Shown here piece by piece: positions 4,768-50,812 of a stretch of DNA of 64,000 nucleotides. Origin of the DNA: Antedon mediterranea (lineage: Eukaryota; Echinodermata; Crinoidea; Comatulida; Antedonidae). The stretch is taken from NCBI RefSeq assembly GCF_964355755.1, contig NC_092673.1, positions 27,781,001-27,845,000 on the forward strand. Reading direction: 5' to 3'. The notes beneath the pieces are model-generated. The model was given only the letters and a program-made list of their open reading frames with translations. It did no database searches and had not been told where the DNA came from. The translations under genes and the position numbers were made by a program. Within the stretch, counting starts at the first letter, position 1, and every line of letters begins with the position of its first letter.

Positions 4768-5949
4768 TAAAATCTTAAATCTACATTTAATATTTTCTTT
4801 TTAGTAGAGAGCATAGGAGTGATTCCAATACCAGTTTATTTTAATACACACATATATTTTTTTTTCAAGTTTAATTCCAAATAAAATAATATCCTTATCA
4901 TTGGATTGCATATATATAATATATTTTGCATGGCATCCTGATACAACACTGAATAATCACCTTTTGTACCTTGGATATGTGACTCCATTTTCAAGGTCAC
5001 AGGAAGTGATCAAATTTTAGTCAAGTGCATCTATTGTATTCAAATTGGGCAAAACACGATTAGTATACCATTTTGGAGGTTCATAAATGTTATGGTTACA
5101 TAAGTTAAGTTACATAATCAACTTGACCTTTTCCCCGCTTGCACTTCTGTACTACACTCTACCATCAACTGCATTTTACCTACTCTGTACTCCATGCAGC
5201 TCAAGGTTAGACCTGCCTGGCCCTATCACCACCCTGCCTGGCCCTCCAACCACCCTGCCTGGCTCTTCCACCATCCTGCCTAGCCCGTCCACCATCCTGT
5301 CTGTCCCGTCCACCACCCTGCCTGACCCTCTCACCACCTTGCCTGGCTGGCTCACCACCCTGCCTATCCCTCCAAGCACCCTGCTTCATACTACCCCCAT
5401 GCATTCTTCCGCTCACCTTCCTTCACACACACCATTTGACCTTCCTCTCCCACTCACCCTCCCTCTGTCCAACTTCTCTCTACACTTATGCCTCAACTTA
5501 CACTCAATAACAAGCAAAAGTCACTATAGTAGCGAACTTTTACAAGGCAATCGTAAAATGCAGTATTCGTCAAAAAACCTAAAAAGTAGCCACTTTTATT
5601 TGGAGTACAAGGATGTAATGTACATAGTGGGGACATCCATTTTCAAAGCCTTCCATTCCACTCATAAAACTAGCCTAAAATCTAATTTTAAGGCCTTTCA
5701 TCCTGCCTAATTTCAATAAAACACCCAGCCAGGAACCCTTTGAAAACCTGTATGTACCGTTGATTGTTCCCAGCCACCCTTAACATTCTGGGAATAATTT
5801 TAGAAAATTCCAGAAATCATTTTAAACCAAAAAAAATTACATAACAGAAACTGTTATAGGATGTTTGTTTTGGCTTGAACTTCCTTATCGATGGAGCTGT
5901 CTTCTGATTGGATAAAGTTATCGATAAGTATATGGTGTTATATCTTAGA
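4768..5949. other. Intergenic UCHL5 to SOUL gene
   Basis: No gene supported. It holds a Pro/Thr-coding minisatellite at 5207-5396 and, near its right end, paired ATCGATAA motifs around an inverted CCAAT box (ATTGG) at about 5885-5930, which could belong to the downstream promoter. Confidence 0.5.
5207..5396. repeat. GC-rich 18-bp minisatellite
   Basis: About ten degenerate copies of a unit like CACCCTGCCTGGCCCTCC. Because the period is a multiple of three, it keeps long frames open on both strands; these are not taken as genes. Confidence 0.85.
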
Positions 5950-6004
5950 AGCTCAGTGCCAGCAGCTTTATTGGTGTGACTGATTGTTAAGATTCTGCTG
6001 CATG
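5950..6004 (+). other. Possible non-coding first exon of the SOUL gene
   Basis: A GTAAGT donor at 6005 precedes the acceptor TTTTTACAG (ending 6182) that opens the first coding exon nine bases before its ATG. Upstream start is not resolvable; a TATA-like AGTATATGG lies around 5929. Confidence 0.35.
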
Positions 6005-6191
6005 GTAAGTCATTCTTTTATTTCCTAGTAAAACAATCTTTTTATTGCAATTTTATGTTGCTAAATGTCATGAGCAATTCTGAAGTCACTCACTCAGACG
6101 TCATCTGTCAGACTAAATGATAAATAGAAATTCTCTTTTTTAAACTCGTTTTCCTTGCTTCAATTATTTTTAATTTTTACAGATTTAAAAG

Positions 6192-7711
6192 ATGAGGTTT
6201 ATTCTTATCTTGTCGCTTCTCATCGGGGCCCAGGCCATCAGCTGGTCAACATTTAAGAAAAAGGCTGCAAAAGTCCTAGAGTAAGAAAGAGTTATACTTT
6301 TTGTGATCAAATATAATATTTTAATTGTCCATTATTATGATGAAAACATTTTTAAGTTGTGCTGAAGAAAATGCTGTTGATTGTTGAAAGCCCTATTTAT
6401 ATATAACAACAGGCAAAGAACATTAATTCTAAACCGCCCGGTTTAATATATATGTGAGTTAAATAATATTAAATTTAACAATCTATCGTATGCAGATGAC
6501 ATGGTGCTTATATCACCTTCTGCATCAGGTTTGCAACATTTAATAAAAATTTCTGAATGCTTTTTGCGGCCAAAAATGATATTGTTTACAATGCTAAGAA
6601 ATCATCTTGTATGATAATCTGTCCTAAGTCACGGAGGATTCAATTGAAACCTATTATTACCATTAATGGCAAAAGCTTAGAATATCTTGGTCATGTTATC
6701 TCCTTGGATTTATGTGATGAGTTTGATATAAAGCGGCAATACAGATCTTTGTGTATCCGAGCCAACTCCTTGGTCAGAAAATTTAGTATGTGTTCTATCA
6801 ATGTGAAATAAAAAATGTGTTTTATTTAGAACATATTGTGTAAATATGTATTGTGCTACATTATGGTGCAACTATAATCAAGGTACCTTGCGATCTCTCC
6901 AGGTATGCTTCAATAATGGTTTAAGAATGTTGTTGCAAGGGCCTCGACAGTGCAGTGCCAGCCTCATTTACGGAATGTAGAATTCCTTCTTTTTATGAAT
7001 TAAGAAAATCAATATATGGCCTGATGTGTAGACTTAATGCAAGCAAAAATATTTTAATTTCAACGATTATAAGCAACGTCTTACTTAAGTCGAAGATGCT
7101 CTCCAGGTGGAATGTCATCCTGAGATGAGTAGTTGTAATTAGTCTTTTTTATTTTATTTCATTTATATGTAATTTTTTACTTTCTATGGAGTTTCCGAAA
7201 TAAAAGATTGAAAGAATGAATATACACGACAACATTATCATTAAGAAACATCAGACTTAAATGAATGTATTAAGATAGTGAGTTTTAGTAACAAGTACAT
7301 TTTTATTCATAGTGAAGTTATTGACAGAGCTGAAGTTATCTTGCAAGATGAGGACATCACTGAAGAAGAGGACATCTCAATGCCGAGGACAACACCGCTC
7401 CCATTTGACATGACGCTGGAAGATGAAGCAGAAAAATGGAATGAGCTCGGACAAGGCATCCTTCAATGTCAAAAGATGGAGTCGTTAGAAACACGATTCA
7501 GACGTGAAACCGGAGGATCTGGCTTATCTGAAATGATACTTGGACTTGTAGAGTGGATTAGTGATATGAGCGCTGATATAGAGAACTATGAACCAATGAG
7601 TTTTGAGAAATCCATTGACAAATCTGAAAGGTCTTTTGCCAGAAGTTCATCAAACTTTGACCTTGATATGTTTGACCTTGACGAGGTCGTTGCTGCTCCA
7701 TCTCGGGACAG
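6192..7711 (+). CDS. SOUL gene exons 1-2: signal peptide and acidic region
   Basis: Exon 6192-6280 ends in CTA GA and joins the T at 7313 to restore Asp. The second exon encodes about 133 residues rich in Asp/Glu and Ser, with DEDITEEEDIS and a FDLDMFDLDE stretch. No family recognised; it could be a propeptide or linker. The intervening intron holds a LINE fragment. Confidence 0.8.
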
Positions 7712-10700
7712 GTCAGTAATATAGTCGAAACATACCATCACTATACTGTATATGACCAAGTGTTGTCGCGTGGAGCCTGTCAACAAATTGGACAAATATT
7801 ATCAAGTGTGAATATACCAAAATCTTGTCAAGTAATTTAGCATAATTTAAGGGGTGGGATTATACTCTAACATGGGATTATACTCTAACATGGGATTATA
7901 CTCTAACATGGGATTATACTCTAACATGGGATTATACTCTAACATGGGATTATACTCTAACATGGGATTATACTTATATACTATACATTCTTATGTCTAT
8001 ATAGGTCTGAGGAAAAGACGAAGCCTACCGACAAATATGAATCACCAGACTACAGTGTCATGTGCAGTACTGAAGATTATGAGGTTCGAAGGTACAACGC
8101 AAGCGTCTGGATGTCTACAAGTGTGATTGACTTCAGCCGCCAGACTGCAGGAAGTAGGGCCTTTAGAAGGCTGTACCAGTATATCACTGGAGCAAATCGT
8201 GAAGGTAACCCCATTGTCATTGAGAGTCTGAGTCAGCTCTGATCTGCTTGATGATAAATGTTTCTTGAATTGATGAATTGAGTGTGGTTATGATCAATGT
8301 TGTTGCAAAGGTGTACATTTGATAATAAACATTAGAAACTTTATACCCGGAGTTACCCTTTTACAAATGTCCCTTATTGTTACCTTATTATGATACTTAC
8401 ATTTTCTGTTATTTATAGGTGTTCAAATTCCGATGACAATTCCTGTAATAACTCGTACTGAGGCCACATGTTCTCCTTTTAAACTCTTCAAGAACTACAC
8501 ATACTCATTCTACCTACCAGTAGAATTCTGGGATAATACACCAACACCTACAAATGAAAAGGTATGACACCCAACCTCTCACAACTATACAACCCTTACA
8601 ATTTCCCAAAATGACAGACTTGCCCAAAATTAGAGACCTTCAAAAATGTCAGACTTGCCCAAAATTTTAGGCATGCAAACATTTCAGACATGTCCAAACT
8701 GTCAGACTTTCCAAAAATGGCCGACTTGCCAAAAATGTCAGACTTGCCAAAAATGGCTGACTTGCCCATAATTTAAAATTAGCCACAAATTTCAAAATAG
8801 CCCAGTAACCTTTAACATATCATTGGATCAACTTTCATAACAAAAACATTTTTGTTTAGGTATTCATGGAACGTTTTCCAGCAACAACGTTTTATGTGTC
8901 AACATTTTGCGGCTATATGAACAGTTTCAAAGTAGCGTACCAGTTGTACAAGTTGAAAAATGCGTTAGATGCTTCAAACAAATCATATGTTGATAATTTT
9001 TACCTTACCGCTGGCTATAATAAGTAAGTAGGATAAGATAGGATAAATTTAAGTAAATATAGTATATATAATGATCCTAATTTTAATCATTAAGCCTTAA
9101 TTAGGCCCTCTGTGGATTCAACGGTAATCACAGTACAGTGCCTACCATAATCAGCACACTGGGAGACAGTGGAACCGTAGCCATAACATTGGCAAGAGTT
9201 CAAAGCTCCATAGTTCTGATGGAAGAACAAGTCTTCTCAGATAGGTCCAGCGTACACATCTAGCTCATGTGCACTTTTAAGAACCTTGTACATCTTTGGA
9301 GACGAGTAGGGGGTTACCCTGGTGTACATCACAGCCACAGGGCCCTCTGGGAGACCAGTCTTTAAATATATAATAAATAATTAATAATAATACAAATTTA
9401 AATTTACATAGATGAGACCAATTTAACATCTGAAGAACAAGAAAGAAACAAAAAAAAACACTATGTAAATTAAGGTACTACATTTAATCATTTTTTGTGT
9501 TTCAATTTTCAGACCAACACAGTTTTTTGACCGAACAAACGAAATCTGGATCCCTTTTGACGGTGCTAGAGATAACCCGTGTCTGGATTTGAAGCCTACT
9601 ATTGCAAATCCTCATGTGGAAGAATGTGAAGGTGCTTTATAATTACATAGTCTGCTTTATCATAACAACCACTTTAAACTGAAGGCTTAAAAGTGGTTCC
9701 CACTAGAACGCAACGTAGCGCAGTGACGTATCGACGCAAAGTGCTGTAGACATTGCTACGGGAAATCAAATTAGTTTGATTTCACGCAACGACGCAAAAA
9801 CACTGAAAAACATAGTACAGCCATAGTACATAGCCAAATACGCGAGGTGAACCGTGTCTATGGCAACTAACATTGATGCGCAACAAGCAAGTTTGATTTC
9901 ACGCAGACTGGGGAAAACAAAATTTCTTACGTTGCGTAGGTTGCGTTGCGTTTTAGTGGGAAACATGCTTTAATCATCTGATCACAATTAGGATTACTGG
10001 TTTATAATTCCAACACAATTCGATTGATTCTATTCGGTCCCCGCACGGGTCTGGTTCTTATTTAGATATGTATTCATATTCATTCGGTTCCTCCCATGAT
10101 AGTTATTAATATAAAATATATAAATTTATATATTTTGAAACTACTTTTCAGGTTTAAACTGTCCAAAGTATCAATTATTGGAAACACTTGATGAGGGTGT
10201 TGAACTACGTCGTTATAGCAACCTGAATACAGTTATCAAGAAAGCCTACAGCTGTGATTTTGAAACTGCAAGGTCAGATTCCTATGACCCTGTTTCCTGG
10301 TATTTCAGAGGTAAGTAGAGGGCATGTGACGCAGTGTGTTGGCATTGGACTACTGATCATGAGATCGTGGGTTTGAATCCATTTTTCTAAAATTTATTTC
10401 TATTTTTTAATGTATATTTTTTCTATTTATTATTTTCTCTATTTATTATTTTGATTACTCTTTGTCTTTACTTTATTATGTTTTTGATATGATATGATAT
10501 TTCCAATTACTTTACCACTTTGAAAATTAGTGCACTAGTACTGAAAGTGCCTGCAGAATAAAGAATAAATAAACATGTACAGTGCTTGAGGTTTCACAAC
10601 ATGAGGCTCTTTATAAATCCAGGATATTATTAAAAGGGTGAAATGAAGGGTGAGTTTATTTTGATGTCCTATCTTTTGCATTACAATTTGCAAAATTTAG

Positions 10701-13700
10701 TGGGGTGGGTGTCGGGCCAGCTGAATCCACCCATGTTTAGTAATATAATAGAACTAACATATAGCACCATTCTATGTAAAGCTATTCTTGTAGTTTAATT
10801 TCTTGTATTGCAGGCTTCAATTCCAAACAGCAAAACATTAAACCAGTTGGGCCTGTGTTGTTCACCATTGATCGTCCTCAAGAACTGCCTGAGAACTGTG
10901 ATGCTGTTTACCAAACGGCATTTATTGCTCCTAGCAACTTGAAGGGAAATTTGCCAGAATCATTCAATGTAAAAACAATTTTATAAATTTATTTAGAGGT
11001 TTTTCTTGTGGTTTTAAGCTCTGTCTACACTATCAAACTAGTTTGACAAAAAAGTGTGATGTACCCATACATGGATGATGTCATATTACTACTATATTTA
11101 AGCATATCACTACCATATTTAAGATAAAAATACATCAATTGTTTTACTTCCAGAACTCTGTTAACAGAGAATTTATTGATTCCTTGGATGTTTATGTTTA
11201 CCAATTCAAAGGATCCATGACCAATACAAGTGTTGTTAATTATGAAAGATTGCGTGCCATACTCGGTTCCAGATGCTATGAAGAAAATTCATTTATTCTA
11301 GCAGGTAAGCCTTGCCAAACGAGTTTTTTTCTTGGTATCTTAAAATGCAATTTAGCAACGGGCCACACACAAGTGATCCCTAGGCCTACGACCCCCAATT
11401 GCCCACCATGTGACCCACAACCATCCAATCAAATGACAGGAATTGATTTAGGTGTTACATAATATACATAGTAAGCCTGTATAATCATATTCTATTGTTC
11501 TTCTCATTTAGAATACAGCTTGAATAGGACCATTGAAGTCTGGATAGAAGCAGCTTCTGGTTGTCAAGTTAGAACTGAAGCTCCTCCAGCAATGGCAACC
11601 AGCAGGAATCAACCACCATCTTTCACCATTCCACCAGTGGTTCTCAACATTCAACCACAAATTATGTAAATAAACAGTGTGTTATTTTTGTCCATTTTTG
11701 CAGACAGATTACAGCTTTTGGAGCTTGTGGTTGTTATGAAAGTGACAAATCCTGGCCACTGAAAGGATTGAAACCAAGAACTATAGTTTTGGTACTTACG
11801 AGATTGGCCCCTGTAGGTTTAGCCACCATGGGATTAAGTCTTGGGATTGGGTCCTCATGAGATTGGGTCCCCTATAGAATAGATAGATAGATAGTTCTTC
11901 CTGAAGGGACTTTTTCACCATAAACAAACTATACTAGTGTGTTAACTAATATCAGTATAGCCATAATAATGTGTTGTTTTGTAAACTATAGTAATCAATA
12001 ATATAATAATGTCTACAGTCTACATCCAATAAATCCCAAAACATAATCCACATGTATTTTAAGAGGCACTATATGTCAACAAATAATCATTAGTCCTCTC
12101 TCCATGATGGTTGTCACATAATGCTTTGTATTATTTTTTATTAGGTTATATGCATGATATGCATATAACCTCTTGATTCTGTCAGAATCTTTATTTATTT
12201 CTTTATTTATTCTTTCCTTAGCACTATTTTGTCCGTGAATTATCTTGATATCAGTTTCATCTATCTAAGTCAATTTTTCAGAGTATATTCCTTATGGCCA
12301 GGAATCGATGTGGTTATGTTTTCAGGGTGCGCAATCAAACATTACGCGGTCTACGCGCGATTTAACGAAATCACGTTTGTAATCATATCTTCACAAGCAT
12401 GAATCACTTTTAAACAAAATTTGGTACTCATAAATTTCAGGTCATATTTCATCATATGGCAATACAATTACGTGCGTAGCGCATATAACGCATGCGTACG
12501 CGCGCTTAGAATGTTGAAAATTGTCAGAATTTATTTTCGATGAAATTAGAATACGTTTCAGGCAATTTTAAGCGTTTAAAAAATTGCCATGAGTGCGCAG
12601 ATTTTTGCACGTGCACTGCGCGTCAAACGTTAATGCGCACTGTTTTTGTCCGATTACTGTTGTATAACCTTTCTTTAATAATATCATCATATTTTATTCA
12701 CTTTTCAATGCGAAACAGCGTTATACGAGCACGTCAAAAGTGACAGGCTACGCACGTGTAAGTTAACAAAATGGTGAAAATATGCTAAATTTTAAAATTA
12801 ATATATATCGTTAGAATGCTCGGGAACACCTATTTTTTATTTAATTTTCTTGAAGTGTATGTATCATATGTATGATTTCTTATCAAATAAAGAGAACAAA
12901 AGTTGATTAAGTCATCATTAATTGCATATTAAATTAAAAAAAAATAATTTCGACAATCAAACAAATTATGACATTCTCTTAGGCCAAAATAACAAACTTA
13001 ACATTAACTTTCTTCCTTCAAAAATTCATATATTAAAGTTAAAAGTATGTAGTTTGACAGTCCATCATTTGTATACATTTTAAAGATGTCATCATAGTAA
13101 AAAATTATAATTCATTTCGGTATGTAATAATCTATTTGCATCAAACTGGTTACTGCATAGTAAATACACGGAGGAATTTTTCTACAACTTTTAGTCAGTT
13201 GTGTACGGCTCGGTGGTCTGTGCTCGTGTCTATGGCATTCAAGGTACCGAGATCGAGTCTCACCTTGGGAAACGAAATACGAATTTTTTTTTTTTATTAT
13301 CCGTATTGTTTGTTCAAATTTATTTCTTAGTGTATAGATTATACACATGATTTATAATGAAATCTAGATAAAAATTAACTTATGTCTTTATTTTATTATG
13401 TAACAACAAATGTGGTTTATGACATTATACGCATATGGATCTTTGATCGGATTGTGATACCGGCTATGGTGTTCGCGTTAGCAAGGTCCTATCATATATT
13501 ATAAATAATTAAAGATTCTGAGAAAATCAATCAATCAATATATCTTTTAAAAATCAATTATCTTTATTTAAATCAAGGCATATAACCTATAATTCGTCAT
13601 AGTGACGAATTAAATCTAGTTGTATTTATATGTTTCATATGGACAGTTTGTCTGAAATAAAGTTGAATTGATTGATTGATTGATTATACCCCCCAGTGGC

Positions 13701-15226
13701 GTAACATAATGGGCAAAGGCCCCTGGTTTAGCTGTCCTAAGGGGCCCTTCAACGCTTGGTATTTGCATTGGACTGCTCATGCTGTGGGGCCCTTCAAGCT
13801 CTGGGGTCCTGGGTTTAGCCACCAGTGAGCACTCATAGCCGTTACACTAATGTATACCCTCTCCTTTCTTATCTACAGTACTGGTCAAAACAGAATGCAG
13901 ACAGCTCTCCCATCATGCACTGCTGGTATAGACTGTCCCAGTTACCAACTTGTGACAAAGCATGGAAATGTAGAAGAACGCACCTATGAACCTTGTAGGT
14001 ATCAATTGAGTTTGAAACGCTTAGTGAGATATTTGATACTTGAATGAATCAGAGCAAATTAACATTTGCAACTATACCACATTGTAGCCCATTCTTGGTA
14101 CTGTGTTTATAATTTCCCTGTATCATAGCAAATTATGTAATACACATACAATCATATGTATCACATCATGTGATGTCTGTATCATAGGCCATAAGCCTCA
14201 ACTAACCCTAACCTTAATATATAATGCATATACCACATGTGATACATTATGATACAGGCATCAGATGTGATACATATGTGACACTGTATTACAGAAGTTT
14301 CCTATGATACTGAACAGATAATGCCATATGTGGAGATACAGTACAGAGAATCAAGTGCACATAATAATAATATAGAATGACTTTACGATATCATTGAAGC
14401 AGAACAAGCCCTCTTTATAAACAGTTGTTTGTTTGTTGTTTATCTTAGCTAAGTGGGTTTGTAGCTATTCAAAAGCATGTAATATAGACATGGCTAGCAA
14501 TGACAACTATCAGCGTCTCTCTCTCTACATGGCCGGTACAGGCAACAGAGAAGGCACAGTTATTTCTATGACGTCTCCCTCTATTCTGAAGGTAAGGAAC
14601 GAATGCAGTGTCTTTAGTAACAGCAATAACGGTTGCATTTTCCAGTATTGAATTGACTATAGCAAATAATTATTCTAGTATATGTCAATGTTAATTATTT
14701 TTTTTTTTTGTAGATGAGTGTTGCTGATCTTGACAAAATATCTTGCAAAAAGAATTATGAGATGTGTCTGTACCTTCCTGATGACATCACACCTCCAAGC
14801 CCAAAAGAAACAAATGTAAGTTATTCTTATTTAAGTAATGCATGTAAGATATTCTATACTGTATTTAGGAAATCAAAAACTTGTTAAATTACTTCTATAA
14901 TGGCCATATAAATACTCAAGACTGTTATAACAAATTAGATTTTTAAAAATGTTTTCCTATTGACCTTTGAAAATAAATTGTTCTTCAATCATAACTTACA
15001 TTATATTTTCCAGGTGTACTTGAAGAAAGACCAAGGCCGTGTTGTGTACACGTATCCACTTGAGAAGTCTATCGTAGGCAAGAGATTCAGGAAAATGGCC
15101 AAAAATGCCATTCTTGAAGTCGACAGACTAGGCCTAGAAACAAAAGACTACTTGTATCTGTCGCAGTATAGACAGACTGGAGGCGGCAAATATATGGAGA
15201 TATGGCTGCCTAAAATCACTCAATGA
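6192..15226 (+). CDS. Secreted protein with three tandem SOUL (HEBP2-like) domains
   Basis: Coding exons: 6192-6280, 7313-7711, 8005-8204, 8419-8561, 8860-9023, 9513-9631, 10152-10310, 10814-10968, 11154-11304, 11512-11665, 13879-13994, 14449-14591, 14714-14815, 15014-15226 (TGA). Together 2307 nt, 768 residues, in frame throughout. Residues 1-16 form a signal peptide (MRFILILSLLIGAQA). Residues ~30-165 are an acidic region I do not recognise. Three SOUL domains follow (~170-375, ~376-575, ~585-768). SOUL proteins bind haem or other tetrapyrroles and are usually single-domain and intracellular; here the signal peptide, extra Cys residues and N-glycosylation sequons (NYT, NAS, NRT) point to secretion. 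Ligand and role are not shown by the sequence. The start was chosen because its ATG opens the signal peptide just after a good acceptor. Confidence 0.9.
6480..7215 (+). mobile_element. Decayed non-LTR retrotransposon, 3' end with RT remnant
   Basis: The sequence around 6489 encodes a YADDMVL reverse-transcriptase active-site motif. The frame then shifts; 6557-6811 continues with NAKKSSCMIICPKS and LEYLGHVISLDL, as in the RT thumb of CR1/RTE-like elements. After a stop, a further remnant runs to about 7060. It ends near GAAATAAAAGATTGAAAG, a LINE-type tail. Frameshifted and 5'-truncated, so inactive. It sits in an intron of the SOUL gene in sense orientation. Confidence 0.8.
7855..7974. repeat. 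18-bp tandem repeat, ~6.5 copies
   Basis: Near-identical head-to-tail units of GGGATTATACTCTAACAT in the short intron 7712-8004, ending about 30 bp before the acceptor at 8004. Very low divergence between units suggests recent expansion. Confidence 0.95.
8005..9631 (+). CDS. SOUL domain 1 (four exons)
   Basis: Exons 8005-8204, 8419-8561, 8860-9023, 9513-9631. Matches HEBP2/SOUL across its length: YEVRRYNASVWMSTSV at the start, FRRLYQYITGAN, the IPMTIPVITRTE strand, FYLPVEFW, ERFPATTFYVSTFCGY, FYLTAGYNKP and NEIWIPF. This is the most HEBP2-like of the three domains. Introns fall in phases 1, 0, 2 and 1. Confidence 0.92.
8600..8775. repeat. Degenerate ~20-bp repeats
   Basis: Some eight imperfect units around CAGACTTGCCCAAAA or AAAATGTCAGACTTGCC in the intron 8562-8859. 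Confidence 0.6.
9160..9365 (+). mobile_element. SINE, 5'-truncated, family of 38451-38740
   Basis: Shares the body of the 38451 SINE: GTAGCCATAACAT.GGCAAG, CACATCTAGCTCATGTGCAC, GAGTAGGGGGTTACCCTGGT and GGGAGACCAGTCTTTAA, then an AT-rich tail. The A-box end is missing. Confidence 0.75.
9687..9973. mobile_element. TIR element, ~290 bp, TTAA ends
   Basis: Left TTAAAAGTGGTTCCCACTAG and right end reading TTAAAGCATGTTTCCCACTA on the opposite strand, followed on both sides by AACGCAACG-type sequence. GC-richer than its surroundings; non-coding. Confidence 0.7.
10152..11665 (+). CDS. SOUL domain 2 (four exons)
   Basis: Exons 10152-10310, 10814-10968, 11154-11304, 11512-11665. Begins with CPKYQLLETLDEGVELRRYS, keeps the GPVLFTIDRP strand and the EFIDSLDVYVYQF strand, and ends with IEVWIEA. 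It is the most diverged domain; the usual FRRL helix is replaced by DPVSWYF. The last exon could read through to TAA at 11666, but splitting at AT|GTAAAT and joining 13879 restores frame into domain 3, so splicing is preferred. A short isoform ending here is possible. Confidence 0.85.
10316..10575 (+). mobile_element. Probable tRNA-headed SINE
   Basis: A tRNA-like start with a B-box-like GATCGTGGGTTTGAATCC (about 10363-10380), then AT-rich body and a LINE-like tail AGAATAAAGAATAAATAA. Single copy here, so the family is not confirmed. Confidence 0.45.
11016..11122. mobile_element. Family P palindromic MITE, copy 3 (right end lost)
   Basis: Starts AAGCTCTGTCTACACTATCA with the CTAGTTTG arm and stops in the ACCATATTTAAG core, 31 bp before the exon at 11154. 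Confidence 0.85.
12142..13620. mobile_element. CpG-rich insertion, possibly Helitron-like
   Basis: A segment with unusually many CG dinucleotides (ACGCGC, GCGTACGCGCGC around 12340-12760) inside an AT-rich intron. It opens near a perfect palindrome, AGGTTATATGCAT and its inverse (12144-12172). It closes at GCATATAACCT followed by a hairpin AATTCGTCA/TGACGAATT, then AAATCTAG and T. A hairpin just before CTAG and insertion ahead of T are Helitron 3'-end features, but no 5' TC end or coding region was found. The GCATATAACCT palindrome also recurs near 47770. Boundaries are uncertain. Confidence 0.4.
13617..13685 (+). mobile_element. LINE/SINE 3' tail with (TTGA)n
   Basis: GTCTGAAATAAAGTTGAATTG followed by TGAT/TTGA repeats, the form of a non-LTR retroelement 3' end. 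Confidence 0.45.
13694..13830. mobile_element. Fragment with hAT-like terminus
   Basis: CCAGTGGCGTAACATAATGG resembles the CAGTGGCGTA ends of hAT elements. GGGGCCCTTCAA occurs twice inside. No second end was found. Confidence 0.35.
13879..15226 (+). CDS. SOUL domain 3 (four exons) and C-terminus
   Basis: Exons 13879-13994, 14449-14591, 14714-14815, 15014-15226. Opens with CPSYQLVTKHGNVEERTYEP, then the YQRLSLYMAGTGNREG helix region, VISMTSPSIL, CLYLPDDITPP, GRVVYTYPLE and KYMEIWLPKI before TGA. The domain-start pattern CPxYQL is shared with domain 2. The phase-0 intron before the VYLKKDQ strand matches the phase-0 introns before VFMERF in domain 1 and NSVNREF in domain 2. Confidence 0.9.
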
Positions 15227-15406
15227 TATTAGTGTCTAACCCTTTGCCCTATACTTCAATATAGTTTTCTTAATGTTCATGTTGAGGACATAATATACAT
15301 CTTAATACTTTATTGAATTACAATTTAGAAAAAAACATTTTAAATCATCCTATATGCTATATAAGTAGAAACATTTTTAGATAGAGTATGCCCATATAAT
15401 GATATG

Positions 15407-15431
15407 AATAAAAAGAAATACTTTGAATAAA
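15407..15431 (+). promoter_or_regulatory. Candidate poly(A) signals of the SOUL gene
   Basis: Two AATAAA hexamers (15407-15412 and 15426-15431), about 180-200 bp after the stop. Confidence 0.6.
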
Positions 15432-15890
15432 GAAATACAGTATCATTTTTAAATGGTCTTTCGTTATATGTGTTGTTTGTTGAACTGAGGATTGCAAGTT
15501 TGACTCTTGCGTTATTAATTATTTTTTAATTTCCAGTTGGTGCGAAGTTTAAGGTTTGGAAACACGTTGCCAGATATAAATGCTAAATATGAACATATTT
15601 AAAGAATTATACAGTAACTATACTAAAATTGTTTTCACAATAATCACATATACCTAGAGTCATAATAATTGGAAATTTCAAATACAGTGTACTGCTGCAC
15701 GTACTACTACTGAGCTATAATCCTGTCTAGCGCCCTCTATCTCAAAGCAATGCAACAGTTGAATTTTCACATCATTGGAATGTGAATCAAAAGTAAAGCG
15801 GATGATGAGAAATATGTAGGCACAATAACTTGTTGATATCATAACTAGACGAATTTACTTCTTACCATATTTTTAGGTGCTTTTGTCAGA

Positions 15891-15927
15891 ATGAGTTTTA
15901 GGTCTTTTATAGTAATATTTCTTTTAG
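15891..15927 (+). CDS. CRB: Crumbs exon 1: signal peptide start
   Basis: ATG followed by [11 protein letters not shown], then donor GTAAGT at 15928. The remaining signal residues (GVSINVTC) come from the next exon 8.2 kb away. This ATG was chosen because it gives a hydrophobic leader in the matching phase 1; no other suitable leader was seen nearer. Confidence 0.75.
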
Positions 15928-18900
15928 GTAAGTATTTCATTTTCTTGTTTAATTCCATTAATCGTGGCGGTTCGACGAAGGCCAAAGATTGAAAGAGGCG
16001 GTGGCGATGAAAGGAGGGGTTTACGGTCGTTTCCGGCCTGGCCGTAGGGCGACGACCGAGCCGGTGGTGCGGCCTAGCTTCCTTCCGGATTTATTTGTCG
16101 AAAACGATATGTTTATTGTACAACGTACGTTTTTTCTTTCCAAAAAAAAAAATGTTTGCTCAACATGACATAAAAATGCAGTCCACCACCAGTCGGAGAA
16201 CAGAAGTGCAGATAATGTGTAATTAATTTCATTCATCGTTGTATGATCTTTACAATTTACATATTTTTGTGTCTGCAATATTAATAATCTAACACTTAAA
16301 TAATACAATAATTGATAATGCATTTTTAAATCATACATTATGAAAAGGAAACATTGTAAACATCATATAAATGCAAAAATTGAACATATTTAATTATACA
16401 TTACAGTCATTACTTTCTAAAATCTCACTTTTTTCAATAATTCTTGTTGGTCTTTTTAGCGCTGTGAGACATCAGTAATATTATTAAAAATTTATTATTA
16501 TTATTATTATTATTACTAGGCCTATATACCAAATGGTAAGGTACTAAGGCCTTAATAATAAAACTAATCTAATTTTATTAATTCCATTTGCTAATTTCTA
16601 ATTACTGCTTTAAAAACTCACCTAATATGCTGACATTTATTTTGACTGGTTTTAGAATTTAATACACTATTACAAGACTGAATTAAAATTATTTGATATT
16701 AGGCCTATTGTTTGAATGGGAAGTCATTGGTTTAATATCTTCCTATATTGCTTTAAATATTATAGCTCCATATTGGGTCTACATTTATTTTAATTAGTGC
16801 AAAATAGGTTATTGAAAAATTATAAATAACACATAATTGTTTTTGGAATAGAACTAAAATAAACATTATTGTATTATCAAATCTTTGAATCTAGTGTTTG
16901 TACAATATGTGAAGTCCTGATGCATGTTTAATTTAAATACTAACCAAATTTAATATTTAAAACATCTGCCATTTTCAATATATTTTTTTTGGATTTGTGC
17001 AATTCATTTATAATGGATTAACTCCTTGCATGAAACATTTTGTGAATCAATATAAAAAATATTTCCAAAAAAATATGACAAATTTATTTCTCTAACTTTT
17101 CTATTAGTAATTAAATATTAGTAATTAAATATTAATCCAAAGGCAAATTACTGAAAAAAATGACAATGCTGTGGGTATCAGTGGCTGGCAAAAATAAAAA
17201 GCGAAAAGCTAAATCAAAACGATAAAGTAAACAGCCAGAAAAGTTAGCAGAGCTTTTGGTAATTAAATATATTTTAATAAGAGGGAAATGGCAACTCACA
17301 ACGGCAATTGTTTTTCATGAGAAAATGATGACATTATTTATTGTATTTTATTTTTATTGCAAATATTATATATATTTTGTTTTTGTGAAGTTTTTAATTT
17401 TGTTTAAAAAATTACTCTTTGCTGCGTTGCTTATTTTTTTGTTTTGTTAACAAATTTTAAATACTAAAACCTTTAATCTGTTTTGTAATCAAAATGTCAC
17501 TTTTTATTCTGAATAGTATAATTATTAACTACGTTATTCCATGCTTTAAGTCAATTAATTAATGAGTAATTATTTTTAATTTGTCTATCATAGCAAATTT
17601 ATTTCGTACAATTTAATTTCCTCATAAATCCAAATTTATAAATAACTTTCATTGCCTTTCATTGTTTATTTTTCTTAATTCTACCAGTAGAGGAAAAATT
17701 TTAGAAAAATATCCGCCATAATTCTACCAGTACATTGTATTTATATTATGTCATTGGCAATGATGAATACACTAGCTAATGTTTATTAATAATATAATAG
17801 TACGCCGATAGTACGGATTCTGTGTGTACTGTCATGCTATATGAATAGGCTGTTTATTGATTAGAGCCATTGTTATCTTAACAATGGGTTGAGTCACACT
17901 TCAGTATGCACTATTTCTGCATGGCTATTATGTTGACTGCTAAACATGGCTTCAATTCACTCTACAACTTTCATTTTGATTCTTATTAACTAAAGATTAA
18001 ATTCTTTTCTATGCTCTTAAAAGGATTGTTCATAATTTACAAAGCAAAATACCAATGAATGATTAACAAATTTAACAATCATTTTGATGTTTATTTCTCT
18101 ACTACACAATATCATAGTTAAACCTACATAGCTACCGTTAGGAAGAGATAGAAGATGTAGATCAAAATATTTAGTATAAAGTAGTGTAATACAGTAGGCT
18201 CTACACAAATTGTTATTTTTAATATGGTCTTTATTTTTAATCATTCATATTCTGATATTTTCATTTTTGTAAACATTTTATTTCATGATTTTTTTTTTAT
18301 ACTAATAGTTTCACAACTGAGTCATATAGCTTTACATAATTATCTATTTGTCTTGTTATCCAATTTTATGTGCTATTTTATGTTTGTTTTTTAAAATTAC
18401 TAATCACTAACATTCAGCCATCCATTATGCGTGTGTACAGAAAAAACATCTGATTACATTTTTACAAAATTCTAAAAAATGAAATACTACTATCATTATT
18501 CATTATAATTTAATTTACAAATTAAAGATGTATTGCCACCATGAACATTTTTTTGTGTGTGGAATATGCCATTTTAGTGTCGCATAATAGTTAATCACTT
18601 TGACAACAAATTGGACTTAAAAAATACTTTTAAAAAACCGTAATAATTTTATGCACGACAAATTTGCTTCAAGCTAATGGGTTTTGGTTAAATTTATTTT
18701 ATATGAGAAAACATATTTTGTTGTTATTTTTTTTTTACGGAAGGGATTATCTTGATTAAAACTACAAAATAACGTTTTCAAAGTCTGATTTAATTTTTCA
18801 TTATAATTTCATTTAATCAAAATGTAATTTTTTCATTATGATTTAATCAAAATGTAACTTACAAATTAATAAAAACAAAAATGCCGTACACAAGCTGCCA

Positions 18901-21900: not shown

Positions 21901-24900
21901 AACAAAATAATTATACAGTTTGTAACAGCATACTGTACCACGCAGTTTAGATTTATTTTTAATTTTAAATACCTCCATCATCTCTCGCTCAACCTGACAC
22001 TTGCTTCGCTGGCCCGAACTTGGGCAACCATGAATCCCAAAAACATGGTCACCACACATCTAAATTTCTTGACTTTGGAGTTTGAGTTTGTTAAAAAGTA
22101 TATAAAAAAAAAGAAACAAATAACGAATGTTTTATATAAATGGAAGGAATGTTATTATTATTATTTGTACTATTACAGCCCCATTTACTACCCTGTAAAC
22201 TAACAAACAAACAAGGGCTCTGGGGTACTCAGCATGAAATGCCATTATATCGTCTCACTCTAACAATTAAAAAGAAATGGGACTTATCCATTAGTATTTT
22301 TAAAGTTATATTTTTATTGTGACAACTGTTTCTATTATTTATTTAAGGCGTGTTAAAGTATAGTGTAGTATATCTTTAGCATACTAGAGTTTTGTCAACA
22401 CTGTACGGCAACCTTTAGACCTGTGAACACACTGTAGTAATGCTAACTGCAATGAATTTAGTAGACAGACACAAACTACAATGGCAAGTTAGTTACCAAG
22501 AAAACAATTAATTGGATTCTTACGTGCAAACATCTGGTGGTTTTTGTTTTTCATTTTATTCAAATTTGTTTGGAATAAATCTAAAGGCAAATTACTGGAA
22601 AATTTACTTGATTTCAATGAAGATAGAAATAAAATCAACAAGAAACTAAATCAAAACAATAAAGTAAAACACTAACAGCCAGAAAGAAAGTGCCATACCT
22701 TTGGAAAACACCGATTCCTAGTTTGTCATCATCTGAAATCAGTTAAAATATTCAGCAGCTGTAACATCTTCTTATTAATTTTGATAACGAGGAATCCATC
22801 CATCTATCAACATGTATGATGTTTGTTTACATCACTGCTATTGTATTGCACTCGTTGTTTATATTATTTACTGCCCTTTGACCTCTGTACCAGGTTGTTG
22901 AATGTTACAAAGCCTTTCATCAAATGTCATTAACAGCCTTTCATTAAATGTCAACAGAAAATACAATTTTGGTTCATGATATTAAAGACAAAGAAAGAAT
23001 AGCTCATACTGATTTGTTTGTGATCTATAGAAAATGACAAGAATGTAGCCGCATCCTTTTGATTTTTAATTAGGAGAATTAATTGGCACCCCTGTTGGCA
23101 CCTCTATAATAATTTAGTTACTTTATCTGAGCATGTAGGCAAACAAAACATGTATATAGAGTTGTATAAAGCTTTGTCTACACTATCAAACTTTAGTTTA
23201 CAAATGTGATGTGCCCATATCACTACCATATTTGGGCACATCACACTTTTTGTTGTCAAACTAGTTTGATAGTGTAGACAGAGCTTAAGACTGGGTGATT
23301 ATTTGCGTCATTACATTGGAAGATAGGAACACCCAAAAAAAAACCCATGTCTGCTCAACTCTATAAGCATACTGTACAGTACCACTAAATCTAATTAATT
23401 TAAAGGGATCATTGTAAAAAAAAATGTTCTTTATGTAAAATTACTCGAGTTTTGTTGATTTTATTTATACACTATACAGTGCAACAGGTCTAAACAAAAG
23501 AAGAATATATTGAAAATATGATATTGGGCAGGTGTAATTTGGGTGTCTTGTACAGCCTCAACACATTACATAGCTGTGTAATATTTGTCCATTATGTATC
23601 TGGTATTTGTAAATTGTAAAAGTAATTTAAGAAGAAAGATAATAGAGATAATGAATGAATTGTGACCACCAATTGATAAAGAATAAGGTTTATACTGTAC
23701 AGTAGTAAAATCCCTGACTTTACAAACATAATGTAATTAGGTCAAGGTGATAAAACTAGCCTAGTAAATAGTGGTGTTTTTTATACAGCATTGTATGTAC
23801 TATACAAAAGGTATTTTTATTTTTTTAAAGTACACTGTAAAATCAGGTAAAGATTTTGAATTTTAGAAAATACATTTTTTTCAGGTGGGTAATGTTGTTT
23901 TCCAAGACAACGAATGATATGTTAATCAATTAAATAATTATTTCGTTTAGAACGAGTTTTGATAGAATATTACTCAAATTAATTAAAAATAATGTCCTTA
24001 GGCTTTACAGATTAGGTTTTTTGTAGATTTACATATTATGGTAGGCATTTCATGAAAATAAAAAAAAAATTGCTTTTTGATTTGGAATAAAATATTTCCT
24101 TTTGATTTTCACAGGTGTATCCATAAATGTTACTTGTACCACAGGTACAATTGAGGGTTATTTTAACGGGTCATCTGTGATTGTCCTAAACACCACATTA
24201 AATATTCAAAATGGATTTCAATTTGGATTTCGAACTTGTAACGGTGGCCAGCTTATTATTGATACTGGTCTCAACAACGATACATTTGAAATTTCATTGG
24301 ACGACGCCAGTGGTGCGTTAATAGTCCAGTGGAATGCATCTGGTATTGCAAATAGTACGAGAATTGGTTCAAACTTGAACAGTAACATCTGGACAAACGT
24401 CCAGTTATCGACAGAGATTGTCAAGTCGGGTCAACAGGTTCAGATTGTAGTAGATGCTGGGTCATTTTCTGATTCGTATGTTAGTGGCCCTGATAGTGAA
24501 TTGCTTAGTATCGACCTTAGTGGCAGGTCAAAGGTCACAATTGGCAACGGTTTTATAGGCTGCATCGAAGAAGGAAGCAATTTGGATTTTGATGACGAAT
24601 TCTACACAGAGAATGTGCAGTGGGGGCAGTGTCCGCTGGAAACGCAGCAAGGATGTAAGTATTTCAAAAAGAAGCCCATGGGCTAATTTTGTATTTAATG
24701 CCAATCGATAGGGAGACTTATTTTTAATTGGTTTTAAAAAGAAAATTAAATGTTAAATTTGGAAATAATTGTTTCTGCACAGCTACACAGCAATCTGTTT
24801 ACACTATCCATTGTAAATACATTAGTATACAGATTATACCTTACATCTCATGCTGTTACAATAAGTGTGACCTCTAATGAAAGGTCATTTATGTTGAAAT

Positions 24901-27900
24901 TTATTCATTATTTGTATCTAATTACAACATGATTACAATTACAGGTTTTAATGTGTATCTAATATGCTGTTTTGCAACACTTGTTGTTGTTCCTTAATTT
25001 AGAAATGTTTTGATTACTAGAATACTAGTTCTAGTTGTGTTAACAATAACATACTAATCTCACACCCCCTGGTTTCTGATATTTTATTATAATGTAAATC
25101 AAAATGTATGTTTTTTTTGTAAAGCTCTGTCTACACTATCAAACTAGTTTGAAAAAAAAAGTTTGATGTGGCCAAATAATGGTAGTGATATGCCCAATGG
25201 TAGTGATATGACATCATCATGTCCATATATGGGTACATCACATTTGTTGTCACATAAAGTGTGATAGTGTGAACAGAGCTTTAGGACACATTCAGGATTA
25301 GTTATTTATATACCATGTATCATAATATTTATTTTGTATTGTTTTTTTAGGTGACGATATAGACCATTGTTATAGTATTCCATGCCAACACAATGGACAG
25401 TGCATTGATATCACAGGTGGTTATGAATGCAGGTGTACCACAAGATATTCAGGAGTTAATTGTGAACAAGATAATGGTGAGGTCAAATACACATACATCA
25501 TATAGTTTTTTTTCACACATTACATCTTAAGCTCTGTCTACACTATCAAACTTTATGCGACAACAAATGTGATGTGCCCATATATGGACATGATGATGTC
25601 ATATCACTACCATATTTGGGCACATCACAATTTTTTTCCAACTAGTTTGAAAGTGTAGACAGAGCTTTATAATAGGTACTTTTAATTAACAATGTTTGAC
25701 TTTCCTTTAGGTAATTTATGCGGAAGTAATGATCCCCGCTACGCTCTAAAGTGCGGAGAAGGAGTTTGTCAAGAGCGAGATCACGGAAACTACACCGTGT
25801 GCGTTTGTCCGTATGGATACTCGGGTATAGGGTGTAATGTGACTGCCAATTATTGCGCAAGTGATCCTTGCGAAAACGGAGCTAGTTGTCAGAACAACAA
25901 TGATGGTTATTATTGTAATTGTACTGAAGGTGAGTCTTGGATTCAAATATTATTCAGTATTGTGTCTAGTGACAATAAACATCTTGCAGTATCATGTCTA
26001 GTGACAATATACATTCTGCAGTATCGTGTCTTCTGACGACAAACTTGCGGTAGTAGTGTTTTAGTAGTGACATACAATTTAGAGGGTTAGGTTAAGTTGA
26101 TATTAGAATAGGAGGTAGATGCTGTGGTATGGGCCTGTTGCTGTCAGCAGACATGATACTGCAGGATGTTTATTTTTGCTAGACTTGATATCATTATCAT
26201 ACAAGACTTTGCTGCAAAGTTCCATTGTACCAGGGAGATCGGTTTGTAGTATGACTGGTATGAACAGAACTAAACAAAAAGGGGTGTTTTTTCCTAAGTA
26301 TTAATCATATGTTCAAATCTTTATTTGCATATTGTTAATTATTCGTCTAATTTGCATTTAGGTTTCACTGGAGTCACCTGCGAGACAAACATTGATGAAT
26401 GTTTATCCTATCCATGCTTGAACGGGGGAGTTTGTCGTGATGGCATCAATAACTTTACCTGTGACTGTACAAGTACCGGTTACGAAGGTCATTTCTGCTC
26501 GCTTCCGATCGACGAGTGTTCTTTTTCTCCATGTGAAAATGGTGGCACCTGTATGGATACTAATGGTGGATACATTTGCATATGCGTGAGTGGTTTCACA
26601 GGTGATGATTGTGAGGAGGATGAGGATGAGTGTAGATCCAGTCCTTGTGCAAACCATGGAACGTGTGTCGACAAGTTAGACGGATTTACCTGTGAGTGTC
26701 CAGCAGGATTTGAAGGTATAGTATATGTGATATACATATTACAAGTAGCTCTGTCTACACTATCAAACTTTATGTGACAAAAAAATGATGCAAATATGGA
26801 AATATGCAACATTATTGTTTACATCAACACTACATTTCTGTATTTAATATTAAGTTTATTTATGGTGTTTTGTTGTTGAAGGAACCTATTGTACCGTTAA
26901 CATTGATGAATGTGAAGGGATAACATGCAATGATACCTATGTTTGTCGTGACCTTATCAATGCATATGTGTGTGACTGTCCTGACGGAACATGTGAGTAT
27001 GCTTTAATTTACCTACAATATTTTAAAAAGTGTGAAATATTTATTTGATTTTGGTGAATATAAAATCTGGTTTTACGAAAGACTGTAACTGGAGTTAATA
27101 ATATTTTGTTTATTTTGTCTTTATCTTTTAGTTGAAGAAAAAGATAAGTGTGTTGATTATGATGAATGTTCTAGTAGCCCATGTCGATACAATTCAACAT
27201 GCATCAACGGTGGCAACCAATACGCATGTAATTGTACCATTGGCTATGAGGGAACAAACTGCGACCAAGATATCAATGAATGTGAATCGAACCCATGCCT
27301 TAATGGCGCAGTGTGCGAGGACATGCTAGCTATGTATGAGTGTACATGCCTACCAGGATTTGACGGTAACCATTGCGAGGTTGATATTGATGAGTGCGAA
27401 TCAAATCCGTGCCAAAATGAAGGAGTATGTGAAGATCTAATTGCTAAATATAATTGTTCTTGTACAGAGGGTAAGCTAGAGGCTTTTATGTTTTGACTTT
27501 TAATTTCATCCTCTTTAAATTGAGCGTTCCATACCCGGCACTATACTGTAATCATTTGACATATATCTTAGCCTGATTCCTTAGGCAAGATGATTTACTC
27601 TCATTGCCTCATCCTTCGGATGGGATGTAAAGCCGTTGGTCCTCTGTGTACTGAACAGTGCACGTTAAAGAACTTGGTATGCTATACAAAAAGAGTAGGG
27701 GATCCTCTTCCGGTGTGCTGATCTGGTAGTCTCTGGCTGCCGTGGGTTCGTGTAGGGCCTAATCCGAATTTCCTGTTTCCAGTTAAGCTTGAGGACCAGA
27801 TTAATACATTTAACATTTAATTATATTCCTTTTCTTGTAGGTTTTGATGGTGAATTTTGTGAGAATGACATTGACGAGTGTCTTTCCATGCCATGTGTGA

Positions 27901-30900
27901 ATGCGACACATTGTTTGGACTCTGTCAACAACTACACATGTATCTGTATGCCTGGATTTGTGGGTAAGATCTGCTGGTATAACGTGTTTCATCCTATGTC
28001 GCCTTCTATCAATACTTCAAGATCTATCATAGCTTTATTTATTTCTATCTCATCGAGAAATCACTTCCACATAATTGTCAAATTATAAACATTTTAGACT
28101 TTTAGACTAAAATTCTTTTTCAATTATATAAGGTAATATATACAATCATACTACAGTATTTTCCATTGGTAATCATGCTATAGTACTTTCAATTGGCAAT
28201 CATGCTATAGTACTTTCAATTGTCACTCATGCTATAGTACTTTCAATTGGCAATCATGCTATAGTACTTTCAATTGTCACTCGTGCTATAGTAATTTCCA
28301 TTGGTAATCATGCTATAGTACTTTTAATTGGCAATCATGCTATAGTACTTTCAATTGTCACTCGTGCTATAGTACTTTCAATTGGCAATCATGCTATAGT
28401 ACTTTTAATTGGCAATCATGCTATAGTACTTTCAATTGTCATTCGTGCTATAGTACTTTCAATTGGCAATCATGCTATAGTACTTTCCATTGATAATCAT
28501 TCTATAGCACTTTCCATCGGTTTAGGTTATTTTCATACATTCAATTTCATTATTGCTGATTTTCATGAGAATGCTGTTTTTATTCCAAATGTTTAACAAT
28601 GGTATAAGATTTAAAAAGTGTTCAATTATCAATAATTTTTTGTGTTGCAGTTGTATGCAGTTGTGGGTTGTAGTGCTGTGGCATGCTACAAGCTACTTGT
28701 TGTCAGGCAGTGTACAGCATGTACCGACTAAAGTAGAAGCATGTAAAAAAGCATGGTATCATTTTTATGAGGTTGTGGGATTTTACCGCATGATATAGGA
28801 TTGAAAATGTAGCATTGTGCTACAAAATTGTTATATTTGTTGGAGGTGATTCGGCATGACGCTACAAAATTAAAATGAGTACATATTACATCCTGATTAT
28901 GTACACTAGCAGTGCTCTGTTCAACCATCACCTAAATATGCAAATTTGCTACCTGAAATGTTACAGTGCTCTGTCAAACATCACCTAAATATGCAAATTT
29001 GCTACCTGAAATGTGTTACAGTTCTCTGTCAACCATCACCTAAGTATACAAATTTGCTACCTGAAATGTGTTACAGTTCTCTGTCAACCATGACCTAAAT
29101 ATACAAATTTGCTACCTGAAATGTGTTGCAGTTCTCTGTCAACCATCACCTAAATATGCAAATTTGTTATATTACAGGAGTACAGCAAGGGTTAATAAAC
29201 AAGAAATGAAAATTAAAGGTTGCACATTATCATTCATTGTATCTCAGTATCGTTTGATAAAAATATTAAAATCATCTTTCGATTTGACACAATTGTTTGT
29301 TTGTTTCATTCCTTTTGTCATAATCAGTTTGTTTTTTAATTTTTTTCTTTATTTTTATTCTATACACTACATGCATACATTCATAAACACCTTCATCTTT
29401 TTCATTATCAAATATGTTCAAATCAATTTATAAAAGTATAATTCAAGGTTTAACATGCCTATTTTCGAAAAATGTATTATGAGAATTAATTGTGCAATTT
29501 ACTTTACATAAAGAAAGTGTTTAATGAATGTTTGATATATTGTGAATGAAATGTTATAATTGTAATACTTTATAGTTTCAGTACTTGGACTTGGTATGGT
29601 ATTATACTGATTTATATACTTATTTATAAGTTCTTATATTATATGTAAAACAGCCTGATGACATAATGGTGGCATTGCAGCTTGTTGCTTGCTTTTTATT
29701 CCAAAGATTCCGGGTTCGAATCATGGCTATGTTGTGCATTTGTTAATGTTACTCTAAACATAGATAACTGATAAAAATGTCATAATTATTGTTGATTCAT
29801 CAAATTATTATATTTGTAGGTGCAACCTGTGCCCAGGATGTTGATGAATGTTCCTCAAACCCTTGCCAGAATAACGCTACTTGTTTAGATGAAATAAACA
29901 GTTTTAGCTGTGTGTGTACACCAGAATGGATGGGTACCACATGTACTAAGCCATACGATGCGTGTATTGATATTACACCTTGCCAAAATGGAGGGAACTG
30001 TTCGTCGAAATCACCAGCACCGGAGTACAATTGTACATGTGCTACTGGCTTTAATGGAACAAACTGTGAGAACAACATAGACGATTGCCAGAATGTTGAT
30101 TGTAAGAACGGCACGATATGTTATGATTTGATAAATAATTATGAATGTAAATGCCCGGTTGGATTCGAAGGGGTACAATGTGCGGACGACATTGATGAAT
30201 GTGCGTCAAATCCATGCATTAATGGAGTCTGTAATAATCACATTGGGTTATACAATTGTACATGTACTGCTGGGTATGACGGTACCAATTGTACTAATGA
30301 TATTGATGAATGCGCAAGTATTCCTTGTCAGAATAATGGTATTTGCATTGACGGAACAAACATGTTTGAGTGTTTCTGTAGTCATGGTATAACCGGTTCA
30401 CTATGTGAGGTTGATATTGACGAATGTAACTCTGACCCATGCTACAATGGTGCCACATGTAGCGAATCAGACCCTGGTACAGTAAACTGCACCTGCGCCC
30501 CGGGGTACGCCGGGGATCGCTGCAAGATAGACATCGACGAGTGTGAATCATCGCCGTGTGAGAACGGAGGGACTTGCGAAGACAACATCAATTCATTTAA
30601 TTGTACGTGCGTTCCTGGGTACATCGGTGTCAACTGCGAAACTGAGTATAACGAGTGCGACAGCTCACCTTGTGAAAACAATGGCGTGTGTATAGATTTA
30701 GTTAACAAGTAGGTAGCCATCTTACAACTTTCGTTTTGACAACATTTTTTAAATTATTTATATTTTTAACCGCACTTTTGACTTCCTGAGCACAGGTACT
30801 AAATAAGCACTATTTACAGTATTTTGTGTCTTCTAAGCAAGAATATTACTAAAAAAGTTATTGCTATGAATGTATTGCGGAGGTATGACCTACAGTATAG

Positions 30901-50809: not shown

Positions 50810-50812
50810 CTG

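Follow-up and report, generated by a model that had tools for sequence, protein, structure and literature searches.

Can one secreted chain carry three SOUL domains, and would each of them then hold a tetrapyrrole? This question is raised by a gene at 6192-15226 (plus strand) in a stretch of 64,000 nucleotides from the crinoid Antedon mediterranea (contig NC_092673.1; C4:27781001-27845000 in our numbering of the assembly). The whole stretch is called the window below, and positions are counted from its first nucleotide. One bindin match (PF02084, positions 98-163 of 238, E 2.3e-28) by itself points to an echinoderm, bindin being a sperm protein of this phylum; COX1 gave no match in the genome. 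HEBP2 has a single SOUL domain. Here, three of them (D1, D2 and D3) follow a signal-like start, and only the first looks as if it might retain a complete ligand site. The exons, the open frame, the three SOUL matches, the signal-like start, the shortened loops of D2 and D3 and the missing His42 of HEBP2 are read directly from the DNA; secretion, cleavage, disulfides, attached sugars, ligand and role we infer from them.

Three SOUL domains in one open frame

Splicing of 14 exons, all on the plus strand, yields a single open frame of 768 residues, and GT-AG borders are found in all 13 introns. The first-pass annotation had placed three SOUL domains, a signal-like start and an acidic region in one frame, and re-splicing gave the same length. 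Exon 1 (6192-6280) contains the start codon and signal-peptide-like residues 1-15, with cleavage predicted after AQA. Upstream of it, a probable 5' UTR intron lies at 6005-6182 (plus strand), for which the splice consensus CATG/gtaagt ... tttttacag/ATTTAAAAG-ATG was read from the sequence. The acidic region, with a furin-like RFRR motif at residues 91-94, lies in exon 2 (7313-7711). D1 (residues 174-346) occupies 8036-9555 in exons 8005-8204, 8419-8561, 8860-9023 and 9513-9631; D2 (residues 374-539) occupies 10157-11549 in exons 10152-10310, 10814-10968, 11154-11304 and 11512-11665; D3 (residue 595 to the end) occupies 13928-15223 in exons 13879-13994, 14449-14591, 14714-14815 and 15014-15226. 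These domain positions were derived by hand from exon borders and Pfam borders. The frame closes with a TGA stop codon at 15224-15226, and AATAAA follows downstream at 15407 and 15426.

Searched with the Pfam SOUL profile (PF04832, curated cut-off 27 bits), the spliced protein scores 290.3 bits (E 7.2e-87) over three stretches. D2 and D3 run alone each exceed the cut-off as well, with 67.3 bits (E 2.2e-18) and 75.8 bits (E 5.4e-21), respectively. Since matches above the cut-off occur in three stretches, chance is ruled out as their source. Profile coverage reaches positions 1-173 of 173 in D1 and 2-173 in D2. In D3 it is 1-119, corresponding to residues 595-715 only, the first two thirds of the domain; the end of D3 still aligns with the other domains in MAFFT.

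Comparison with proteins of known structure separates D1 from the other two. Over its whole length, D1 matches HEBP2 (E 2e-25) and HEBP1 (E 6e-15). D2 finds HEBP2 at E 6e-4, HEBP1 being absent from its matches up to E 10, and D3 finds HEBP2 at E 1.5e-5 and HEBP1 at E 0.07. The HEBP2 structures concerned (PDB 3r8j, 4ayz and 5gqq) we take to be human HEBP2/SOUL; those of HEBP1/p22HBP are 2gov, 4a1m and 7oon. D1 shares 34% identical residues with HEBP2, 26% with HEBP1, 24% with D2 and 25% with D3. For D2 and D3, identity is 22-27%, whether they are compared with one another or with the remaining four SOUL sequences of the alignment.

Two observations concern the first introns of the gene. Intron 1 contains an apparent reverse-transcriptase remnant at 6447-7128 (SYADDMVLISPSASGLQ..., by eye), a piece of which (6557-6808) was scanned and gave no Pfam match. 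A short tandem repeat with an 18-base unit, also noticed by eye, occupies 7860-7970 in intron 2.

One gene or two

D2 and D3 are separated by intron 10 (11666-13878), and the putative junction of exons 10 and 11 was read from the sequence. The locus might instead encode two proteins, one of them secreted, made of D1 and D2 and ending within this intron, the other carrying D3 by itself; or D3 might be present in some transcripts only. The first-pass annotation put the stop that would be reached by reading through exon 10 at 11666. It is in fact an in-frame TAA at 11667-11669: exon 10 ends at 11665, the TAA begins two bases beyond it, and the open reading frame ends at 11669.

Several observations at this junction speak against a single chain. 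The TAA overlaps by one base an AATAAA at 11669, and a T/G-rich stretch lies downstream. In leave-one-out scoring with a small matrix built from the gene's own splice sites, the exon 10 donor (TAT/gtaaat) scores 3.8; the 13 donors span 1.5 to 9.4, and only two of them score lower. The value of 3.8 is reached by 14% of the 609 GT sites in 5000-16000 and exceeded by two sites close by, at 11568 (4.4, within exon 10) and 11742 (4.0). An in-frame ATG at 13850 would open D3 with the residues MYTLSFLIYS... A D1-D2 product devoid of D3 is therefore possible on these signals.

The remaining evidence leans towards one gene. The acceptor of intron 10 is good (6.7, a value attained by only 4% of 583 AG sites), and donor and acceptor agree in phase, which would happen by chance in one case of three. 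D2 and D3 are preceded by similar linkers, described by eye as C-x(1,2)-G-[LI]-[ND]-C-P-x-Y-Q-L. As for a start of its own for D3, the hydrophobic letters that follow the ATG at 13850 derive from the acceptor's polypyrimidine tract; as a signal peptide this segment would be unusually short, and C stands at -3. A separate signal exon ahead of D3 was also sought: scanning of 11670-13878 gave a single signal-like ATG, at 12633, which lies inside a high-copy repeat, and such an exon was rejected on this basis. On balance we consider it unlikely that two products account for this locus.

The length of intron 10 taken by itself was dismissed as a sign of two genes, part of it being that same repeat. 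With the portion at 12140-12700 (plus strand, 561 bases) as query, 1672 first-look candidates were obtained in the 354-Mb assembly of 18 contigs that contains the window. Forty of them were scored, including the query's own copy; the other 39 are 95-100% identical to it, and 58 matching pieces are listed in total. Inverted arms of the repeat are found at 12173-12200 and 13503-13530. Because a near-identical, high-copy and presumably young repeat lies inside it, intron 10 has probably grown recently.

Signs of secretion

Among all nine-residue windows of the protein, hydrophobicity is highest at 3-11 (Kyte-Doolittle mean 3.41), and Ala-Gln-Ala follows at 13-15. Judged by hydrophobicity and the A-x-A motif, residues 1-15 are consistent with a signal peptide. 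No other membrane span is likely, the maximum of any 19-residue window, apart from those overlapping the start, being 0.89. Residues 16-173, upstream of D1, contain 38 aspartates and glutamates versus 20 lysines and arginines, so that the acidity reported for this region stands; its length, formerly given as 135 residues, becomes 158 by the new borders. No Pfam family matches it at E up to 1.

Besides RFRR, a second R-x-x-R motif is RAFR at 214, located within D1 and lacking a basic third residue. Six N-x-S/T sites occur, three in D1 (194, 255 and 317) and three in D2 (476, 500 and 531). The chain has 17 cysteines: one at 82, four in 174-355, six in 370-544 and six in 591-682. Taken together, these motif-level signs suggest secretion, cleavage, disulfides and attached sugars. 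SOUL proteins had been presumed in the first pass to be typically intracellular; this premise is not general, as a mussel shell protein listed with a signal peptide and a SOUL domain, and a HEBP2-like protein from the plasma of trout, have been published.

Cysteines and sequons in such numbers would also suit a structural or matrix protein, whose SOUL modules would serve protein contacts in the manner of shells or adhesive secretions and would have no part in tetrapyrrole binding. In line with this, listings of the shell matrix of mussel and Nautilus include SOUL or HEBP2-like proteins, and in the pedal disc of an anemone a HEBP2-like gene is one of those described as raised. These finds, however, come from proteome or transcript listings and not from functional tests, and D1 retains the full domain, including the loop discussed in the next section. 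We regard a purely structural protein as improbable.

The putative ligand site

Mouse HEBP2 is reported to hold haem via His42 (PMC6321638). The residue aligned with it is arginine in D1 and D2 and threonine in D3, and only two histidines (366 and 606) are present among the 768 residues. Because His42 is absent from all three domains and histidines are so few, iron ligation in the HEBP2 manner is unlikely. HEBP1, according to the description in PMC6173696, binds porphyrin without metal coordination, so the loss of His42 argues against iron ligation and not against porphyrin binding. By analogy, a HEBP1-like porphyrin site without an iron ligand is possible.

A hydrophobic cleft, bordered by a helix and by the beta8-beta9 loop, is described as important for haem (PMC7006542). 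In the MAFFT alignment with HEBP1 and HEBP2, the C-terminal loop is kept in D1, shorter by 5 residues in D2 and by 8 in D3. The stretch ahead of the final N-E-V-W strand is presumably the beta8-beta9 wall of the cleft. Since D2 and D3 are without these 5 and 8 loop residues, it looks as if only D1, at most, resembles a complete HEBP-type site.

These data bear on the triple extracellular tetrapyrrole-binding array suggested for this gene in the first pass. Three SOUL domains in one frame are indeed present, but three equal sites are not supported: the loop is shortened in D2 and D3, and His42 is found nowhere. With two of the three modules lacking part of the likely site, the word array reads too much into the sequence. 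A true triple array, in which every domain would bind haem, porphyrin or a pigment and one chain would carry three ligands, agrees with the profile match of all three domains and is not forbidden by the loss of His42, HEBP1 needing no iron ligand, but the divergence of D2 and D3 (22-27% identity), their reduced loops and a SOUL profile that stops short of the last third of D3 make it the least probable of the alternatives.

A possible internal duplication and other SOUL genes

Intron positions give some indication of how the three domains arose. A phase-0 intron occupies the same aligned place in D1 (before VFMERF) and D3 (before VYLKKD), and lies two residues earlier in D2. By eye, D1 shares with a single-domain gene on contig C5 (L001, 4408-5848) a phase-1 intron that splits the N-x-E-G glycine; a phase-1 intron of D2 also interrupts a glycine, some five residues upstream, and that of D3 lies elsewhere. 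The C5 gene has no intron at the phase-0 position of D1 and D3. This pattern is consistent with, though not proof of, an old internal duplication after which introns were partly kept. A tree of six rows joins D2 to D3 weakly (86/85), with D2 on a long branch.

A profile search of the genome gave six SOUL matches, three in the exons of D1 and three in the C5 gene. Using D1, D2, D3 and the C5 protein as protein queries brought only two further, weak places, C1:38826643 (E 0.34) and C2:16730101 (E 1.3). As the profile search missed D2 and D3, more diverged SOUL copies may remain. The C5 gene resembles D1 in its strong SOUL match (E 1e-47) and in the phase-1 intron in the N-x-E-G glycine. Unlike the triple-SOUL gene, it has four exons and encodes 190 residues with a single domain and no evident signal peptide. 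Its best PDB match is HEBP1 (E 3e-28), with HEBP2 close (5e-27).

Beyond the crinoid, D1 was used to scan viral contigs, where 20 pattern stretches gave no confirmed case, and prokaryotes, where one of 36 was confirmed, a protein from a cyanobacterial metagenome-assembled genome (L002, 1501-2046). This protein contains one SOUL-like stretch and a hydrophobic N-terminal stretch. Judging from its sequence, bacteria may also have SOUL proteins that are exported.

Other features of the window

Downstream of the triple-SOUL gene, 24081-41333 (plus strand) is a many-exon region of EGF and laminin-G repeats that by eye looks like Crumbs; the five of its open frames that were scanned gave matches. A short tandem array reading GNHAIVLSI lies within the EGF-repeat region at 28132-28596 (by eye). 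On the minus strand, 49052-50830 is one open frame coding for 592 residues; it has NHL repeats and a B-box that scores under its threshold, and we take it to be TRIM-like. An open frame at 56521-56862 (plus strand) matches DUF4487 (PF14868, E 2.4e-8). Rfam at gathering thresholds gave no match in the whole window.

Proposed function and comparison with known SOUL proteins

We propose, with a confidence that falls somewhat short of even, that the gene encodes a secreted precursor in which D1 is the working ligand module and D2 and D3 are altered modules, and which acts as a carrier or scavenger. The signal peptide would be removed and the acidic region probably cut at RFRR, leaving a mature chain of three SOUL modules in a string, with disulfides and sugars. 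D1 would offer a HEBP-type cleft to porphyrin or a similar flat hydrophobic molecule, held mainly by shape and stacking rather than through ligation of iron. D2 and D3 would keep the core of the same fold with a cut-down cleft rim, and are likelier to be spacers, protein-contact surfaces or sites for other ligands. The likeliest setting would be the body fluid or gut, in line with soul1 of sea urchins and the HEBP2-like plasma protein of trout.

Some of the evidence pulls the other way. RFRR is a motif only, the position of the cleft wall is presumed, soul1 of sea urchin is only a possible ortholog, and in the six-row tree, where none of the three inner branches is well supported, D1 stands apart from D2 and D3, among the single-domain proteins. 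A more specific version, in which furin would activate a secreted tandem-SOUL factor sequestering haem or porphyrin in echinoderm gut or coelomic immunity, D1 binding and the two loop-less modules serving recognition or assembly, is a speculation to which we give little credence.

SOUL domain functions in mammals have been termed not well understood (PMC5660111). In sea-urchin larvae exposed to Vibrio, soul1 transcripts are reported to be lower with SpIL17R1 morpholinos (PMC5457136, PMC5660111), and a link of soul1 to limiting iron is suggested in PMC5660111. Like the crinoid gene, soul1 is an echinoderm SOUL-domain gene. Its dependence on an IL-17 receptor sets the context in which a probably secreted protein with one intact and two altered modules would make a test of whether SOUL proteins deny haem or iron to microbes. 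Should the function prove ordinary, the gene would still illustrate clearly the multiplication of a ligand-binding domain within a secreted protein.

Other relatives are described in varied settings. The trout HEBP2-like protein is grouped with haem-scavenging proteins rising in infection (PMC10623068), and a Nautilus shell-matrix contig is said to resemble a HEBP2-like protein. Reports further mention HEBP2 as raised in sea-cucumber gut regeneration, HEBP2-like genes as raised in sea-urchin embryos at 17 versus 13 degrees and in the pedal disc of an anemone, and a light response of hebp2 and soul5 in zebrafish. Among the literature matches listed, from a search that subscription papers mostly fell outside, no triple-SOUL protein is named, which does not show that none is known.

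Compared with these proteins, D1 is similar to HEBP2/SOUL over the whole domain, and HEBP2 differs in having one domain, and in His42. HEBP1/p22HBP belongs to the same family, and its metal-free mode of porphyrin binding is open to D1; it differs in being cytosolic as described. Similar in layout is a Perna viridis shell protein, listed as extracellular with a signal peptide (1-18) and PF04832, which unlike the crinoid protein has one SOUL domain listed and is located in the shell (PMC6641155). As a secreted protein with a single SOUL domain has thus already been reported, three such domains in one probably secreted chain seem to be a familiar part in an uncommon arrangement.

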